Assembly (NCBI RefSeq): GCF_009905215.1
Contig: NZ_CP047593.1
Span: 1,244,900-1,308,899 of the forward strand
Source of the DNA: Tichowtungia aerotolerans
GTDB taxonomy: Bacteria; Verrucomicrobiota; Kiritimatiellia; Kiritimatiellales; Tichowtungiaceae
Direction of reading: 5' to 3'
Length of the DNA stretch: 64,000 nt
In this document: piece by piece, positions 22,054 through 63,878 of the stretch
How the letters are laid out: each line of letters opens with the position of its first letter
Numbering within the stretch: position 1 is the stretch's first letter
Translations under genes and position numbers: made by a program
Notes under the pieces: model-generated
Told to the model about the DNA's origin: nothing
The model's input: only the letters and a program-made list of their open reading frames with translations
Databases searched by the model: none

Positions 22054-22868
22054 ATTTGTTCGGCGAGTTGAGCATCGGTGGCAAACAAAATGCCGCGATG
22101 GTTCATAAACGTGGAGTCCGCGCGGTTCAGGTCGAGCGGATTCCCCGCGAAGTCCGTCGCCACCGCGCCCGCTTCCGCAAACAGGCAGGCCGTTGCCGCA
22201 AAATCCCAGATGGAGCCGCCGCCTTTTCCAAGCTTTGGAAACTTGAAGTAGCACGCCGGAGCATTCTCCAGAACCCAGACGGCATTCATCGCCGCGCCGC
22301 CGGTCATTCGAACCTGCGAATGTTCGTCCAACTCCAGTTTTTCCAATGTTTGGAAAAAACGTGGATTGTTCTTAAAACTCCGGTCGGTAATCAACTGCAG
22401 CGGAGTCCCGTGGTCACGAAGTTTCCAGGGTTTGGAATTTTTGAAGATTCCGCCGCCGCGAACCGCGTGCCAGCAGTTGTGTTCGACCGGATCGTAGACC
22501 ACGCCGATGTGCGGTGTGCCGTCGCGCGCGACCAGGGCGATCGAAACAGAGTAGCCGGGAATGCCGTCGATAAACGGAAGCGTTCCGTCGATGGGATCGA
22601 TGCACCAGAAATACTCTTTCTCAAAGCGGCTGTGGTCGTCCTCGCTCTCCTCGGCGAGCAGCGCCAGATCGAACTCCTCAATCGTCGGCTTCAGGATTTC
22701 AAGAATCATCCGCTGGCTCTTTTCGTCGACTTCGGTCAACACCTGCGAAGCGAGGCTCTCGCCCCCTTCCTTGCGAGTCACATGCTGAGGACGCGACTCC
22801 GCAATCATCTTCCCCGCAGTTTTTGCAGCCTCAATGGTCGTAGCCAAAAGTTTGTCGAAATCCATCAT
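22035..22868 (-). CDS. Inositol monophosphatase family protein
   Basis: 277 residues. The metal-binding motifs are present: LLAEESEDD (about 68-76, Glu), [14 protein letters not shown] (about 88-101) and [15 protein letters not shown] (about 220-234). The family uses Mg to hydrolyse small phosphate monoesters such as inositol-1-phosphate, PAP or histidinol-phosphate. Substrate is unresolved. The start overlaps the stop of the upstream kinase gene by 4 bp (ATGA), so the pair is an operon. Three copies of the 15-bp palindrome sit within its sequence. Confidence 0.9.
22226..22240. repeat. 15-bp palindrome copy
   Basis: TTCCAAGCTTTGGAA; the minus strand reads FPKLGK, the second of three reading frames in which the element occurs. 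Confidence 0.65.
22341..22355. repeat. 15-bp palindrome copy
   Basis: TTCCAATGTTTGGAA; the minus strand reads FQTLE. Confidence 0.65.
22423..22437. repeat. 15-bp palindrome copy
   Basis: TTCCAGGGTTTGGAA; the minus strand reads SKPWK, the third reading frame. Confidence 0.6.
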
Positions 22869-26613: not shown

Positions 26614-27638
26614 GAGCGCTCCAGCTTGCGGTGGGCGGTCATGAGTTCGCCGGGGTTGGTGAGGGCGGCGAGGAGGGAGAGTTCTCCGCAAAGGACGGAG
26701 GCGGCGCAGATGAGCGCGAGCCGGCGTCCGTTGGCACCGGGCTCACGGTCTTCGCGGCAGCCGAGTTTTGTGAGCACTTCTTCGACGAAGGGAAGGCCTT
26801 TTCCGTTACCGACGGTGCCGACAATGAGGTTGGGAAGCGTGACGGAAAACCAGAGATCGCCGTCGCGCACTTCGGCCTGCGTGATACCCTGCGAGCCTTC
26901 GATAATGTTGGCGGCGTCCTGTCCGGTGGCGAGGTAGAAGGCGAGCAGCATGTTGGCGTAGTGCGCATTGCCGGAGCGCAGCCCGCCGGCGAGCATGGTG
27001 CCGATGAGGTTTTTACGAACGTTGATCTGCGCGATTTTTTCGGGCGTGCTCTTGAGATATTTGCGGACCATTTTTTCGGGGATGGTCACTTCGGCGACGA
27101 CATATTTACCGCGCCCGCGAATACCGTTGACGGCAGTGGCTTTTTTGTCGGAACAGTAGTTGCCGGACAGCGATTCATATTTCAGTTCCGGGCAAAGCTC
27201 GAGAATGTGGTTCATGACGGCTTCGCTGGCCTGCGTAGCCATGTTGTGGCCCGAGGCGTCACCGGTCGTGTATTCCAATCTCAGGAAAAGCAGGTTGCCT
27301 GCGATCTGCGAATCCATGTCGATGAGCTTCGCGAAGCGGCTGGTCGTTTCGACGGCTTTTCCAAGGTTCGGAAAATCGGCTTTGATTTTTTCCAGACATT
27401 GGAAAGCGACGATCGCGTCCGGCGCTTCGAAAAGGACGGAGCGGGTCATCCGTTCGTCGATGACGACGGCTTTAATACCGCCGGAAACGGTGGCGACGCG
27501 CGCGCCGCGGTTGACGGTGGCGAACACGGGCGACTCATAGGTCGCCAGCGGCAGTTCGGTTTCGACGTCGATTTCCGGCCCGGTGATTCTGACCGGCCCG
27601 ACCCACTTCAGCGGAACATTGGCAAATAACTCGCTCAT
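26610..27638 (-). CDS. mvaA: Hydroxymethylglutaryl-CoA reductase
   Basis: 342 residues, the short catalytic-domain form. Visible parts: substrate-binding ETELPLATYESP...NRGARVATVSGG (about 27-53), DASGHNMATQASE (about 130-142), the Lys in YCSDKKATAVNG (about 165), the Asp region TQAEVRDGDLWFSV (about 248) and the C-terminal GELSLLAALTNPGELMTAHRKL holding the catalytic His. It reduces HMG-CoA to mevalonate. Its ATG overlaps the galM stop by one base and its stop overlaps fni. Two palindromes spaced 31 bp apart lie in the gene, encoding FQCLE and FPNLG. Confidence 0.93.
   Translation of the reverse strand: MSELFANVPLKWVGPVRITGPEIDVETELPLATYESPVFATVNRGARVATVSGGIKAVVIDERMTRSVLFEAPDAIVAFQCLEKIKADFPNLGKAVETTSRFAKLIDMDSQIAGNLLFLRLEYTTGDASGHNMATQASEAVMNHILELCPELKYESLSGNYCSDKKATAVNGIRGRGKYVVAEVTIPEKMVRKYLKSTPEKIAQINVRKNLIGTMLAGGLRSGNAHYANMLLAFYLATGQDAANIIEGSQGITQAEVRDGDLWFSVTLPNLIVGTVGNGKGLPFVEEVLTKLGCREDREPGANGRRLALICAASVLCGELSLLAALTNPGELMTAHRKLERS
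27359..27404. repeat. Pair of 15-bp palindromes, 31 bp apart
   Basis: TTCCAAGGTTCGGAA begins at 27359 and TTCCAGACATTGGAA at 27390, both inside mvaA and translated in two different frames. The 31-bp spacing is three helical turns. Confidence 0.6.
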
Positions 27639-55884: not shown

Positions 55885-57276
55885 TTATTGGCTGCGAAAA
55901 GAAACCGCAGGCAGTCCGGCCGCATTGATTAGGTTGGGAACCGCCCGTTTATGCCAGGCAAAACGAACCGCTTGCGGATGCGGTACTCTGGGAGAGTGAA
56001 GGACCACACAGTTCCCCTTAATTTCAGCCTGCGCCAAATAAAACGCCCCGTCGTCACCGGCAATTTCAAACCAGTTAGGCATTTTTCCATTGCGGGTCGT
56101 CAACCCGTCCGCAAAATCGAAAGCAACCGTCAGCGTCCCGTCGGACTTTTCCAAACCTTGGAAAACCGGACCGCTGAACTCAACATCCATTCCATAGGTT
56201 CCAGCCTCGGCCAGCAATGCCAGTCGTTCCCCGGGAACCTCCTTATTCACCGGATGAATATTATCCAGCGTGGTATACTCGCTGATAACCGCCATTCCAG
56301 TATTTGGAATCGTTCGCGCAACCTCGGCCTGAGCCTCCCAGAACACCGGAAGAATCCGCGCATCCTCTTCCTTATATTGATACGGCGCGATCTGAACAAA
56401 ATAGAAAGGAAAATCCCGCCCCCAAAGCTCCCGCCAGCCATTAATCAGCGCCCGACTGCGCTCCACATACAGTGACCCTTCGGTATGGTTGCTTTCACCC
56501 TGATACCAAATGGCACCCCGAATGGCGAACGGCACATTGTCATGCAGCATTCCATTGTAAAGCACGGTCGGAATGTGCCGATCCTCCTTATCCTCGCCGG
56601 ACAGCGGCGGCAAATTGACCGTATCGGCCAACAACTCAACGCTCTTCAATCCGCACGGCGGCGTCCACGCCTCGATCTTGGTTCCGCCGTAAGCGCTGAG
56701 CCAAAGACCAACAGGAACATCTAAATCCTGATGAAGTTTGCGCCCGAAATAATAGGCCACCCCGGAAAAGGTGCTCACACGCTCAGACGAGCACCTCGTC
56801 CAGGCCGCATCAATGCGCCCGGCCGGCTCACCGGCCACCCGGCGCGGCGTATCATACAGGCGAATCAAAGGATAATCTGCAGCATCAATACTTTCCTGCG
56901 CATTCTCGGTTCGGTCCATCGACCACTCCATATTGGACTGCCCGGAACACAGCCACACGTCCCCTACTAAAACGTCAGAGAAAGAAACCGCTTCCCCGGA
57001 ACCGGATACCGCCAGCTTCCGAGGTTCGGAAGATGCTGGCACGGGATCGAGCATGATTTTCCAATGATTGGAAGAATCCACAACCGCGGTTTTGCTTTGC
57101 CCGGCAAACTCGACCGTAATTTTTTCCCCAGGCGTTCCACTGCCCCATACCGGAACCGACTGGTCGCGTTGCAAAACCATATGGTCCGAAAAGACGGTAG
57201 GAAGCTGCAACCCCTCCGAAAAACACTCTGCCGCCAACAGAATAAGCAGCCCAATAAACAGACGTTTCATCATCAA
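55885..57276 (-). CDS. Sialate O-acetylesterase (stand-alone SASA)
   Basis: 463 residues with a signal peptide (LFIGLLILLAAECFS). SASA motifs LPTVFSDHMVLQRD, VWLCSGQSNMEW (catalytic Ser), GAIWYQGESN and NIHPVNKEVPGERLALLA (catalytic His) are intact. The protein stops right where its paralogs at 41574 and 46493 run on into SUMF1 domains. It shares with them the palindrome positions at 56149 and 57017/57059. Expected role: removal of acetyl groups from a sialic-acid-like or other acetylated glycan outside the cytoplasm. It heads a two-gene unit with the three-SUMF1 protein. Confidence 0.92.
   Translation of the reverse strand: MMMKRLFIGLLILLAAECFSEGLQLPTVFSDHMVLQRDQSVPVWGSGTPGEKITVEFAGQSKTAVVDSSNHWKIMLDPVPASSEPRKLAVSGSGEAVSFSDVLVGDVWLCSGQSNMEWSMDRTENAQESIDAADYPLIRLYDTPRRVAGEPAGRIDAAWTRCSSERVSTFSGVAYYFGRKLHQDLDVPVGLWLSAYGGTKIEAWTPPCGLKSVELLADTVNLPPLSGEDKEDRHIPTVLYNGMLHDNVPFAIRGAIWYQGESNHTEGSLYVERSRALINGWRELWGRDFPFYFVQIAPYQYKEEDARILPVFWEAQAEVARTIPNTGMAVISEYTTLDNIHPVNKEVPGERLALLAEAGTYGMDVEFSGPVFQGLEKSDGTLTVAFDFADGLTTRNGKMPNWFEIAGDDGAFYLAQAEIKGNCVVLHSPRVPHPQAVRFAWHKRAVPNLINAAGLPAVSFRSQ
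56149..56163. repeat. 15-bp palindrome copy
   Basis: TTCCAAACCTTGGAA; the minus strand reads FQGLE in the SASA gene. Confidence 0.65.
57017..57073. repeat. Pair of 15-bp palindromes, 42 bp apart
   Basis: TTCCGAGGTTCGGAA begins at 57017 and TTCCAATGATTGGAA at 57059. The first is a near-perfect palindrome. The minus strand reads SEPRK and SNHWK. Confidence 0.6.
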
Positions 57277-60145: not shown

Positions 60146-61657
60146 TTAAAGGATTGTGATGACTACATCATCGTCGAACGTCACCTTCGGTGCTTCTTCC
60201 TTCACCTGCTGGAACGTCGGCAGGATGCGGTAGTAAACCTGCAACGCGAGCGTACACAGGCTGGTGGAATAAATAGTCTCTCCGCCCGCCGCCTGCTCCG
60301 GCCCGCGCCACCATCCCTCCGGATGCTGGCGGTTAATCAGCATCGGTGCAAAATCGGCGTTCCATGTTGTCCAACGCGATCCGCCGCGCTGAAAAACCGC
60401 CTGCGTGTTGTAATACCATTCATACGTGGCTGGCAGGCTTTTATTGATCGGGTTTCCCCACGCCTCATCCCATTCCGTCACGCCAAAATCGTTCATGTAG
60501 CGCAGGCCCGCGAGCACCATCGGATCGTTCTGCAAACCGAGCAGCTGCAAACTGAGCACCATCGCGCCGCTCATGATCGGCCCGCCGCTGCTCCACGTTT
60601 TGATCGGCGGCCCCTTGCGGTAATACCACTCGCCCTCTCCTTTATAGAGAAAGGTCACACCCTCAACGGCTTTTTTCATGGCCGCATCCAGCCCATCCAT
60701 ACGAATGCCCGCCGCAGCCGCGGCTTTCATCGCCTGTATCTGCCAGCTGGTTGCCGAAGAATCTGAAATATCCTGCACGTACCAGTTGCCCCACGCACCG
60801 CTGTCGAGCTGTCCGTCGATGATGACCTGCAACCCGTGTTCGACCGTTTTTTTCAGTGCCGGCGCGCGCGTCAGCGCGTAGGCCTCCGCCAGCGCATAGG
60901 TCGCCTGTGCATGGGCATACACACCGAGATCCTCGCCTCCCTTTTCCGGTTTTTTTCCAGACATTGGAACAAAAAGTCCGGCCTCCGGTTCCTGCTGATC
61001 GCGCAGATATTCAATCGCCCGCCGGACGTTGGTCCCGAACATAGGTGACTGCGGCGTATCGCCGTGCGCCAGAAACGCCAGCAGACAGAGCGATGTCAGC
61101 CGTGCCGCGCGCTGCTCGTTTTCGAGCGATGCACTCCAATCGCGCTCATGCCAGGTTTTGTTGTAACGCGACACCTCGCCCCAATACCCTGCATCATCCT
61201 GCCGCGAAGCCAGCCATTCGAGCCCGCGCATCACCGTCGCCTCCACCTGTTCCCCATACCCGCCCGCAAAGCGGTTCAGCCGATCCGTGCGGGCCGCTTC
61301 GGTGCGCCCGGCAAAAAGCCCCTTCATCACCAGCGGCGAATCGACTGCGCTCACCGCGAGCCCGGCCAGATCCATCGAGTCGTTCGCAAAACTGTCCGGC
61401 GGCGAATCGGGCAGCGTCTCCGGCTCTTCCACCTGCATCAGGTTTTCGTCCGGCGGAAGCTCATCGAGTTTTTCAAGCTCCTGTTCGAGCTCCGGAGGTT
61501 CTTCGGCCTCAAGCACCTGCACTTCAATCTCACGGCCGGTTTCCAAGGTTTGGAAAACCACCACGTTAATCAGCACAATCACGATCAGCGCGTTGATCGC
61601 AATCGAAACCACCGGCCCTCCCAGCCGATCTATGATTTTTCTAATAGGCTCAGTCAT
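60146..61657 (-). CDS. Membrane-anchored alpha-toroid (prenyltransferase/squalene-cyclase-like) protein of the exb operon
   Basis: 503 residues. An N-terminal TM helix (VVSIAINALIVIVLINVVVF, about 14-33) is followed by an acidic Pro/Glu linker (about 40-90), as in TonB-like proteins. The rest (about 130-490) is an alpha-alpha toroid with QW-like repeats such as GLEWLASRQDDAGYWGE, IIDGQLDSGAWGNWY and INRQHPEGWWRGPEQ. The DxDD acid motif of squalene-hopene cyclases is not seen, so cyclase activity is unlikely. Genes of this type occur beside exbB/exbD in planctomycetes and relatives, to my knowledge. It is downstream of exbD and was separated from it by the GxxExxY cassette. Confidence 0.8.
   Translation of the reverse strand: MTEPIRKIIDRLGGPVVSIAINALIVIVLINVVVFQTLETGREIEVQVLEAEEPPELEQELEKLDELPPDENLMQVEEPETLPDSPPDSFANDSMDLAGLAVSAVDSPLVMKGLFAGRTEAARTDRLNRFAGGYGEQVEATVMRGLEWLASRQDDAGYWGEVSRYNKTWHERDWSASLENEQRAARLTSLCLLAFLAHGDTPQSPMFGTNVRRAIEYLRDQQEPEAGLFVPMSGKKPEKGGEDLGVYAHAQATYALAEAYALTRAPALKKTVEHGLQVIIDGQLDSGAWGNWYVQDISDSSATSWQIQAMKAAAAAGIRMDGLDAAMKKAVEGVTFLYKGEGEWYYRKGPPIKTWSSGGPIMSGAMVLSLQLLGLQNDPMVLAGLRYMNDFGVTEWDEAWGNPINKSLPATYEWYYNTQAVFQRGGSRWTTWNADFAPMLINRQHPEGWWRGPEQAAGGETIYSTSLCTLALQVYYRILPTFQQVKEEAPKVTFDDDVVITIL
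60955..60969. repeat. 15-bp palindrome copy
   Basis: TTCCAGACATTGGAA in the alpha-toroid gene; the minus strand reads VPMSGK, not FQxLE. Confidence 0.55.
61543..61557. repeat. 15-bp palindrome copy
   Basis: TTCCAAGGTTTGGAA at the end of the TM segment of the alpha-toroid protein; the minus strand reads FQTLE. Confidence 0.65.
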
Positions 61658-61674
61658 AACCGCTTTTATTTATG

Positions 61675-61702
61675 GCCACAAAAAACACAAAAAGTCACAA
61701 AA
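61675..61702 (+). repeat. Left inverted repeat of the GxxExxY cassette
   Basis: GCCACAAAAAACACAAAAAG followed by TCACAAAA. Its reverse complement is found at 62082-62110 with a 24-bp perfect core. It touches the stop codon of the GxxExxY gene. Confidence 0.75.
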
Positions 61703-62074
61703 TCATCCCATAACAAACTTTTTAACGTAGAGTTTGGGTGCGCCAAAATTGATCAAAAGCCCATCATGAATCCGGGCAGGAGTAAGGTATCCGAGTAACT
61801 GGGATACATGCTCATCGGTTGTGTGTTTACAGGCTTTCAGTTCAACAATCAGACAATTTTCTATGAACAGGTCTGTAAAATATTCTCCGAGCACGGTTCG
61901 GTCTTCATCATAAACAGTTAAAGGGTGTTGTTGCTCCTCTTTTAAGCCCAGCTTCCTTAACCTGTGAATCAGAGCGTTCTCATATATTTTTTCGAGATGA
62001 CCAGTTCGATGGTATTTATGAATAGAAAAACTTGTTTCCCGAACGATGTCACACAACTCATTTATTCCCATCAT
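61703..62074 (-). CDS. GxxExxY family protein
   Basis: 123 residues, the normal size. The family-naming motif appears as GHLEKIYENAL (about 24-34) and further signatures are GEYFTDLFIENCLIVELKA (about 63-81) and QLLGYL (about 92-97). The fold resembles PD-(D/E)XK nucleases, with Asp/Glu-x-Lys in VELKA; biochemical function is unknown to me. It has its own AGGAGAG ribosome site. The gene with its RBS is tightly enclosed by near-perfect 28-bp inverted repeats and interrupts the exbD/alpha-toroid junction, so it looks like a mobile gene cassette. Confidence 0.9.
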   Translation of the reverse strand: MMGINELCDIVRETSFSIHKYHRTGHLEKIYENALIHRLRKLGLKEEQQHPLTVYDEDRTVLGEYFTDLFIENCLIVELKACKHTTDEHVSQLLGYLTPARIHDGLLINFGAPKLYVKKFVMG

Positions 62075-62081
62075 TCTCTCC

Positions 62082-62110
62082 TTTTCGTGACTTTTTGTGT
62101 TTTTTGTGGC
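62082..62110 (-). repeat. Right inverted repeat of the GxxExxY cassette
   Basis: On the minus strand it reads GCCACAAAAAACACAAAAAG followed by TCACGAAAA. It differs from the left repeat by one A/G and one extra A. It starts at the stop codon of exbD and ends just before the AGGAGAG of the GxxExxY gene. Confidence 0.75.
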
Positions 62111-62517
62111 TATTCAGCACTGACGACTGTGAGTTTGTTCAACCCGGCTTGTGCGCAGATATCGAGTACGTCGACCAGCCTCGCGTGTTTGGCTCCGCCG
62201 GCGCAGGTGATCAGCACCGTCTGCGACTTGCTGAAGCCCGCCAGCCGGTTCAGAATCCGCTCCAGTTCATTCTTCGAAACCGCCCGGCCGTTCAGGCTGA
62301 AGCCGTCCTCATAAATGTTTACCCGGATCATCTTCGGCGGCGTACGCGGTTCGGTCTGCGACGAGTCGGGCGCCGGACGCGAAATATCGAGATGCGCCAG
62401 AACATCCGGTGTCGAAAACGTCACCAGAAAATAGATGAGCAGCTGGAAGACCACGTCGATCATCGGCGTCATCGACACTTCCATCGGCTCTTCAGCTCTG
62501 TTCCGTTTCTTTCTCAT
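62110..62517 (-). CDS. exbD: ExbD/TolR family biopolymer transport protein (second copy)
   Basis: 135 residues from the ATG at 62517, giving MRKKRNRAEEPMEVSMTPMIDVVFQLLIYFLV; the longer frame to 62607 reads through repeat DNA and is rejected. One TM segment (about 15-38) carries the functional Asp (TPMIDVVFQ). The periplasmic part has VNIYEDGFSLNGRAVSKNELERIL and VLITCAGGAKHARLVDVLDICAQAGLNKL. With ExbB it should use proton flow to drive an envelope process. The start region overlaps an inverted-repeat segment and has no clear Shine-Dalgarno. Confidence 0.88.
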   Translation of the reverse strand: MRKKRNRAEEPMEVSMTPMIDVVFQLLIYFLVTFSTPDVLAHLDISRPAPDSSQTEPRTPPKMIRVNIYEDGFSLNGRAVSKNELERILNRLAGFSKSQTVLITCAGGAKHARLVDVLDICAQAGLNKLTVVSAE

Positions 62518-62525
62518 AACCCATG

Positions 62526-62638
62526 GCCCACGAACCACACGAATAAACACGCATTCGGTTAGGCCGTTTGTAAGGGTGGAACGAGCAAATACCTTCCGCC
62601 CCTCCAATGATTAGTGAAAATTAGTGTGATTCGTGGGC
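62526..62638. repeat. Inverted CCACGAA-type repeats between the two exbD genes
   Basis: GCCCACGAACCACACGAATA (62526-62545) faces GATTAGTGAAAATTAGTGTG...GTGGGC (62609-62638), whose complement reads GCCCACGAATCACACTAAT. About 57 bp of unique sequence lies between. It looks like an emptied or decayed relative of the GxxExxY cassette. Confidence 0.5.
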
Positions 62639-62644
62639 AATCCT

Positions 62645-63810: not shown

Positions 63811-63849
63811 TTCGGTTCCTTTCTAACCGCTGATTATGCAGTTATTAAA

Positions 63850-63878
63850 TTCGCGTCCATTTGCGTTCATTCGCGGTT
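63850..63878. repeat. CGCGAA-type low-complexity repeat at the TPR/exbB junction
   Basis: On the minus strand it reads AACCGCGAATGAACGCAAAT followed by GGACGCGAA. It starts directly after the stop codon of the TPR gene. The layout (NCCxCGAAtnnACxCxAA) matches the other repeats in this operon. Confidence 0.45.

Follow-up and report, generated by a model that had tools for sequence, protein, structure and literature searches.

The GxxExxY gene near the end of the analysed window, a stretch of 64,000 nucleotides from Tichowtungia aerotolerans, lies between two mirrored arms of tandem 7-bp words, and most of the 174 GxxExxY genes examined across phyla and in archaea are found between inverted arms as well. 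We regard it as rather probable that these loci form a family of minimal intergenic mobile cassettes, in which a nuclease gene and its cognate mirrored three-word sites move as a unit; the mode of movement is probably homing-like. The cassette looks mobile and undescribed because a nuclease gene stands between mirrored arms whose word matches the nuclease lineage. The observation is larger in reach than was supposed in the first-pass annotation, in which the window element was noticed.

Structure of the Element

The element and its surroundings comprise the following features, given with window coordinates.

60146–61657, minus strand: downstream gene with a match to the alpha-toroid SQHop_cyclase_C (ORF and Pfam)
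61672–61702, plus strand: 3' arm, mirror of the 5' arm, ATGGCCACAAAAAACACAAAAAGTCACAAAA (sequence; inverted-repeat comparison)
61703–62074, minus strand: GxxExxY gene, 123 aa, predicted minimal PD-(D/E)XK nuclease (profile matches, motif residues, predicted fold)
62076–62083, minus strand: Shine-Dalgarno-like AAGGAGAG, just inside the 5' arm (read from sequence)
62083–62113, minus strand: 5' arm in gene direction, ATAGCCACAAAAAACACAAAAAGTCACGAAA (sequence; inverted-repeat comparison)
62110–62607, minus strand: exbD-type gene (PF02472), upstream of the element (ORF and Pfam)
62523–62641, no strand: second element, gene-less, with mirrored CACGAAT-class arms in the exbD1–exbD2 gap (inverted-repeat comparison)
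63825–63878, no strand: third element, decayed, upstream of exbB (read from sequence)

Inverted repeats with 24 consecutive common bases around a 123-codon gene had been claimed before and were confirmed. With 31 nt each the arms are 94% complementary, enclose 380 nt and share the run GCCACAAAAAACACAAAAAGTCAC, and the whole unit measures 442 bp from arm edge to arm edge. The 23-nt arm core has exactly two occurrences in the window and is absent from all of 100 shuffles. In the 5' arm the words CACAAAA, CACAAAA and CACGAAA follow each other with a spacing of 9 and then 10 bp. The described position between the exbD stop and the alpha-toroid gene is also correct: the TAG of exbD lies inside the 5' arm, and 15 nt separate the end of the 3' arm from the start of the following gene, whose sole Pfam match is SQHop_cyclase_C. 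As stated earlier, a transposase is absent, with GxxExxY being the sole ORF between the arms and no transposase domain present.

Both arms of the second element are spaced 9 and 10, and the third retains one good arm (CGCGAAT-CGCAAAT-CGCGAAT, spacing 10/10) opposite a degraded mirror arm. Together with an intact GxxExxY cassette with CGCGGAT words just beyond the window end (G000:C1:1309574-1309918), four elements lie within about 5 kb. A survey of 464 kb, consisting of the window and twenty spread 20-kb pieces of the same genome, revealed only the window element and its neighbour at 62523–62641 as intergenic word-bearing inverted repeats. Separately, the genome has many copies of the palindrome TTTCCAANNNTTGGAAA, some of them within predicted genes (window 22224–22357, 27273–27404 and 56143–57079; also L244, L248 and L250).

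The GxxExxY Protein

The protein matches the TIGR04256 GxxExxY profile with 106.9 bits (cut-off 35) and PF13366 PDDEXK_3 with 97.4 bits (cut-off 22). Its motif residues are G25/E28/Y31, D68, E78, K80, Q92 and Y96, with D68 and K80 invariant and E78, Q92 and Y96 conserved to over 90%. The earlier description as nuclease-like is supported by the predicted PD-(D/E)XK fold. An AlphaFold2 model built from a 62-sequence alignment (pLDDT 95.6, pTM 0.87) found Cas4 SSO0001 (4ic1, E 4.7e-4) as the top PDB match in Foldseek, and AdnAB nuclease, RecE, LHK-Exo, Cas4 of type I-C and MGME1 were the other best folds; a search of the PDB by sequence gave no significant match. According to the model, GxxExxY is a minimal Cas4/RecB-type nuclease in which an extra DNA-binding domain is absent. 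Fold and motif order (D-ExK-QxxxY) are those of Cas4/RecB-type nucleases; the protein differs from them in its length of 120 aa, in a consensus without the iron-sulphur cysteine cluster and in that cas1/cas2 are not adjacent in the window, where no cas genes are neighbours and the exbB/exbD genes stand instead. An assignment to a defence or phage family was rejected, since the window protein has no match in PADLOC or PHROGs; PADLOC returned only a weak Cas4 match for a relative's GxxExxY.

Arm Grammar and Occurrence

In the genome, a single contig of 3.88 Mb, GxxExxY is represented by eight intact genes and a single match to a remnant. Copies lacking the repeats, which would have spoken against a cassette, were not found among the intact genes: all eight stand between inverted arms just outside the coding sequence. 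The expectation that every copy carries the same repeat held for the presence of inverted arms and failed for their sequence; one inverted repeat common to all copies had to be rejected, as each of the eight has its own arm sequence. The words are CACAAAA, CACGAAT, CGCGGAT, CGCAAAG, CGCCAAG and mixtures of them. Common to the arms is a grammar of an outer (T-rich)ACC followed by about three tandem units of the 7-bp word CRCNRAD, with start-to-start spacings of 8, 9 and 10 bp in 176, 192 and 81 cases, respectively; ACAGGAT is the word of one GxxExxY sub-lineage.

The exact window word was found at 14 places in the genome with at most 3 mismatches, the reversed pattern at none. These places include a cassette with only the GxxExxY start (MEINELCDIIRKTSFSIHKYHRMG*) in a gap between histidine kinase and response regulator, and several gene-less palindromes of 70–100 bp. 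The window's exact arm word also delimits a 500-bp cassette (L012/L294, G000:C1:2040315-2040817) that carries an unrelated membrane ORF of 142 aa, for which only one relative has a homologue (G019, 40% identity).

Beyond this genome, the arm similarity score for 97 loci of the same order and class was 19.7 within elements compared to 11.3 for randomly paired flanks. For loci from Acidobacteria, Chloroflexi, Planctomycetes, Bacteroidota, Proteobacteria, Cyanobacteria, Spirochaetes, archaea and others it was 23.2 compared to 13.5 for mismatched flanks. Since this simple score is also high for neighbouring control genes (27% at ≥16), word-based statistics were preferred. Of the 174 elements, 59% have at least two inward-pointing words in each flank, a state seen in 1.9% of 311 control ORFs; with the direction of the words reversed, the figure is 6%. 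With GxxExxY matches on only 8 of 72,556 plasmids, a plasmid-borne family was rejected.

Genes of the TIGR02436 four-helix-bundle family (23S rRNA IVP), with nine matches in the genome, are often flanked by inverted tandem-word arms of other words. GGCTTTA, CAGAGGT, GTTCAAG and AGTTTGA with a period near 7 were noted (G000 L123; relatives L113-L142). CRCNRAD arms were present at none of 23 four-helix-bundle genes tested. Judged by sequence, these genes often appear to form a second class of cassettes, built alike but from other words.

The Word Follows the Protein Lineage

GxxExxY words are lineage-specific. When the word classes -AG, -AT, -AA and GGAT were mapped on a maximum-likelihood tree of 133 proteins, which is resolved only in part, 7 changes were required compared to 33.3 after shuffling, and none of 200 shuffles was as low. 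A protein and its nearest neighbour agree in word class in 96% of cases; with neighbours limited to <50% identity the agreement is 83%, with 57% expected by chance. The host does not set the word, since different word classes coexist in one genome.

Words and protein are conserved in place. In 102 ordered orthologous pairs, word positions 1, 2, 3, 5, 6 and 7 are 92–97% identical, compared to 63% for N4, 68% for the linkers and 47% for the nearby spacer. The dN/dS of GxxExxY is 0.04–0.13 in five of six computable pairs and 0.30 in a very close pair, synonymous sites being saturated or near-saturated in most orthologous pairs. In 98% of the 55 elements whose arms have three units each, the two arms agree in linker length, compared to 68% for crossed arms. 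Linker bases match between the arms in 48% compared to 57% when crossed, and position 4 in 0.673 compared to 0.654 for permuted units. Spacing and words are thus kept and pairing is not, so that a predicted pair of protein-binding sites rather than a base-paired stem is conserved. A selected RNA or cruciform pairing was rejected, because N4 and linker bases drift and there is no excess of pairing; an intrinsic terminator was likewise rejected, as no U-tract follows the stem.

Placement, Movement and Decay

Elements share the orientation of their operon in 78 of 82 cases with co-directional neighbours (p=8e-19). In 62 of 96 elements, no more than 13 nt separate the upstream stop from the beginning of the first word, and the median distance from the 3' arm to the next gene start is 14 nt. 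At locus L007 the upstream reading frame crosses the 5' arm, its TGA overlapping the GxxExxY start, and the GxxExxY frame continues through the 3' arm. A site specificity for stop codons was rejected, as survival in short operon gaps can explain the clustering behind stops.

Empty sites in related exb operons, which the first-pass annotation had proposed to look for, were found in the very same gap. Between exbD and the alpha-toroid gene, G002, G014 and G023 are empty with the stop codon beside the ATG; G036, G020, G034 and G019 contain a GxxExxY gene of the window's subclade; G012 has a remnant with ACAGGAT arms; and G011 and G006 have arms without a gene. In the exbD1–exbD2 gap, an ACAGGAT-class GxxExxY gene is present in G003; G024 and G018 carry four-helix-bundle genes there. 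An intact element occupies the ilvB–ilvN gap of G013, only arms are left there in G006, and the sequence in G000 resembles a vestige of the 3' arm. Empty and occupied states also occur among relatives at the L007 locus. At one recurrent site, which we take to be the gap between V-ATPase B and D, different species carry proteins of about 43% identity with different words.

Spread as a unit, suggested before, is borne out by copies at unrelated sites that match exactly up to the outer arm edges. In 67 pairs with at least 68% protein identity both flanks are non-homologous, and in the closest unrelated-site pair (92% protein, 88% DNA) the match stops at the outer arm edges, (A)ACCAC...GTGGT. Of the two features sought by alignment, the exact ends could therefore be placed at these edges; a target-site duplication was not seen in empty/occupied or unrelated-site comparisons among relatives above strain level, and a defined target sequence was not found in the site comparisons among relatives. 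Many same-site insertions are inherited, including a set of seven loci, with a downstream gene that we read as anthranilate-synthase glutamine amidotransferase, and a set of four between genes that are presumably guaA and carB. Many insertions are thus old and vertically inherited and do not reflect just a recent jump.

Repeats without the gene had been named as a possible objection. They are indeed common in many relatives: 57 related genomes together contain 1760 matches to the strict three-word arm pattern, compared to 16 for the reversed pattern. Where the gene is absent they are depleted, with a median density of 1.1 per Mb compared to 7.1 per Mb in genomes with the gene (p=0.0014), and arm count correlates with the gene (Spearman 0.52). 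In G025 (e.g. L326-L345), dispersed repeats of about 150 bp with the ends ATACCAAATTAAAC...GTTAATTGCCTAT (ATACC/CCTAT) contain a CACAGAG word palindrome, as if an unrelated MITE had captured it. Being nested in this MITE, the many gene-less palindromes of G025 were rejected as proof of GxxExxY-driven spread; for the same reason the arm count is no direct measure of GxxExxY activity and the correlation is only supportive. This nesting and the depletion mean that gene-less arms do not refute the cassette. A further observation was made in G051 (e.g. L297), where a genome of 2.5 Mb has just two GxxExxY genes but 335 strict three-word arms, several of which overlap into longer tandem arrays.

Mechanism and Alternative Explanations

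From the sequences, it is plausible that the nuclease itself drives mobility, as had been suggested before; we infer that binding to the words, cutting and, through the nuclease activity, insertion are all the work of GxxExxY. The cognate GxxExxY lineage would recognise the three-word site as double-stranded DNA, and the whole unit, with the outer arm edges as its ends, would enter a short post-stop gap, where it does least harm. Insertion would most likely proceed by homing-like break-and-repair or by end-cutting. The cassette would then be kept for long before decaying to gene-less palindromes and traces, and vacated gaps could be refilled by other elements. Against mobility we have to count that target duplication, target sequence and a transposase-type domain were all not found, and against a cassette built on the nuclease that the genome contains one with the same arms around an unrelated membrane ORF.

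One rival is a passive cassette: an enzyme acting in trans, e.g. a reverse transcriptase or some other recombinase, would recognise tandem-word palindromes and mobilise whatever small gene lies between them. Such a machine is conceivable because four-helix-bundle cassettes have the same layout without the nuclease fold; the layout common to unrelated genes, with the membrane ORF in CACAAAA arms as a second case, and the gene-less palindromes at many sites would fit. One common enzyme would not, however, predict the close pairing of word and GxxExxY lineage, nor do eight different words in one genome and the lack of CRCNRAD arms at the 23 four-helix-bundle genes agree with it, and we consider this explanation unlikely. 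A simple transposon would not usually persist by vertical inheritance or stay under strong purifying selection at fixed sites, and both features could point to a host function. A domesticated cassette might confer a repair or defence benefit, with the arms as operator-like sites of autoregulation and movement being incidental. The mostly low dN/dS (0.04–0.13), the conservation of words at long-inherited sites and the co-directional placement within operons point in this direction. Patchy presence with many empty and decayed sites argues against it, as do unrelated-site copies that end at the arm edges, the PADLOC results and the mirrored site 3' of the gene, which autoregulation does not need; a domesticated cassette is judged quite improbable.

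In an RNA-hairpin reading, selection would favour pairing of the arms in the transcript, and the resulting stem, similar to that of an intervening sequence, would be excised or terminate transcription; the complementarity of the arms and their location inside apparent operons speak for it. Pairing of N4 and linkers is, however, no commoner than in permuted units even with G-U pairs counted, and the words are conserved as N4 and linkers drift. The flanks extend as a T-run/A-run mirror instead of a U-tract after the stem. This largely refutes the RNA hairpin, to which we attach hardly any probability. Returning to the mobile nuclease cassette, its most far-reaching form is a self-sufficient element of about 430–450 bp, the smallest single-protein DNA element known, in which a lone Cas4/RecB-like nuclease has diversified its words and which belongs to a wider word-armed class including the 23S rRNA IVS genes; this we propose only tentatively.

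Comparison with Known Systems

RAYT genes are long-kept nuclease genes beside lineage-matched inverted palindromes, with gene-less copies elsewhere, and GxxExxY cassettes are alike in all three respects. The GxxExxY nuclease is of the PD-(D/E)XK and not of the HUH/Y1 type, and its arms consist of three tandem words at fixed spacing rather than a hairpin and lack the GTAG/CGTC tag, in contrast to the GTAG-/CGTC-tagged palindromes with a Y1 transposase of REP/RAYT (PMC3733652). The 23S rRNA IVS of Coxiella with its S23p ORF measures 428 nt (PMC4990558). Like the window element, it is a unit of about 430 nt with a single small ORF and inverted ends, tolerated in a transcribed unit. The four-helix family of the IVS is, moreover, the one often found in parallel cassettes here. 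Unlike the IVS, the window unit lies between protein genes (exbD and alpha-toroid) and encodes a nuclease, and it is word spacing, not pairing, that is selected.

With free-standing homing endonucleases the cassettes share a small nuclease gene and full, empty and decayed states, as at exbD–SQHop and ilvB–ilvN; they differ by mirrored multi-word arms, the Cas4/RecB-like fold and the lack of a known homing site. By analogy, the persistence pattern resembles that of homing elements and REP/RAYT. Terminal inverted repeats, intergenic location and multiple copies are common to MITEs and insertion sequences, from which the cassettes differ in having no transposase or visible target duplication and in the different ends of each own-genome copy. 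By the comparisons made, the GxxExxY cassette does not fit a transposon, a REP/RAYT element, a 23S IVS or a terminator. In the open-licence papers searched, a cassette of GxxExxY and arms was not found described, those that name GxxExxY dealing with other matters, and the arm word sequences had no relevant mention.

Conclusion

The very common, multicopy TIGR04256 family has had no assigned function, and a concrete substrate hypothesis for it is now at hand. The cassettes would account for a large class of enigmatic intergenic repeats across phyla (CACAGAG, CGCAAAG, CACGAAT and the like). They would further provide a natural series of protein-DNA recognition, in which a clade-by-clade code relates a 120-aa nuclease to a 7-bp word, and make the GxxExxY cassette a candidate for the smallest mobile element.
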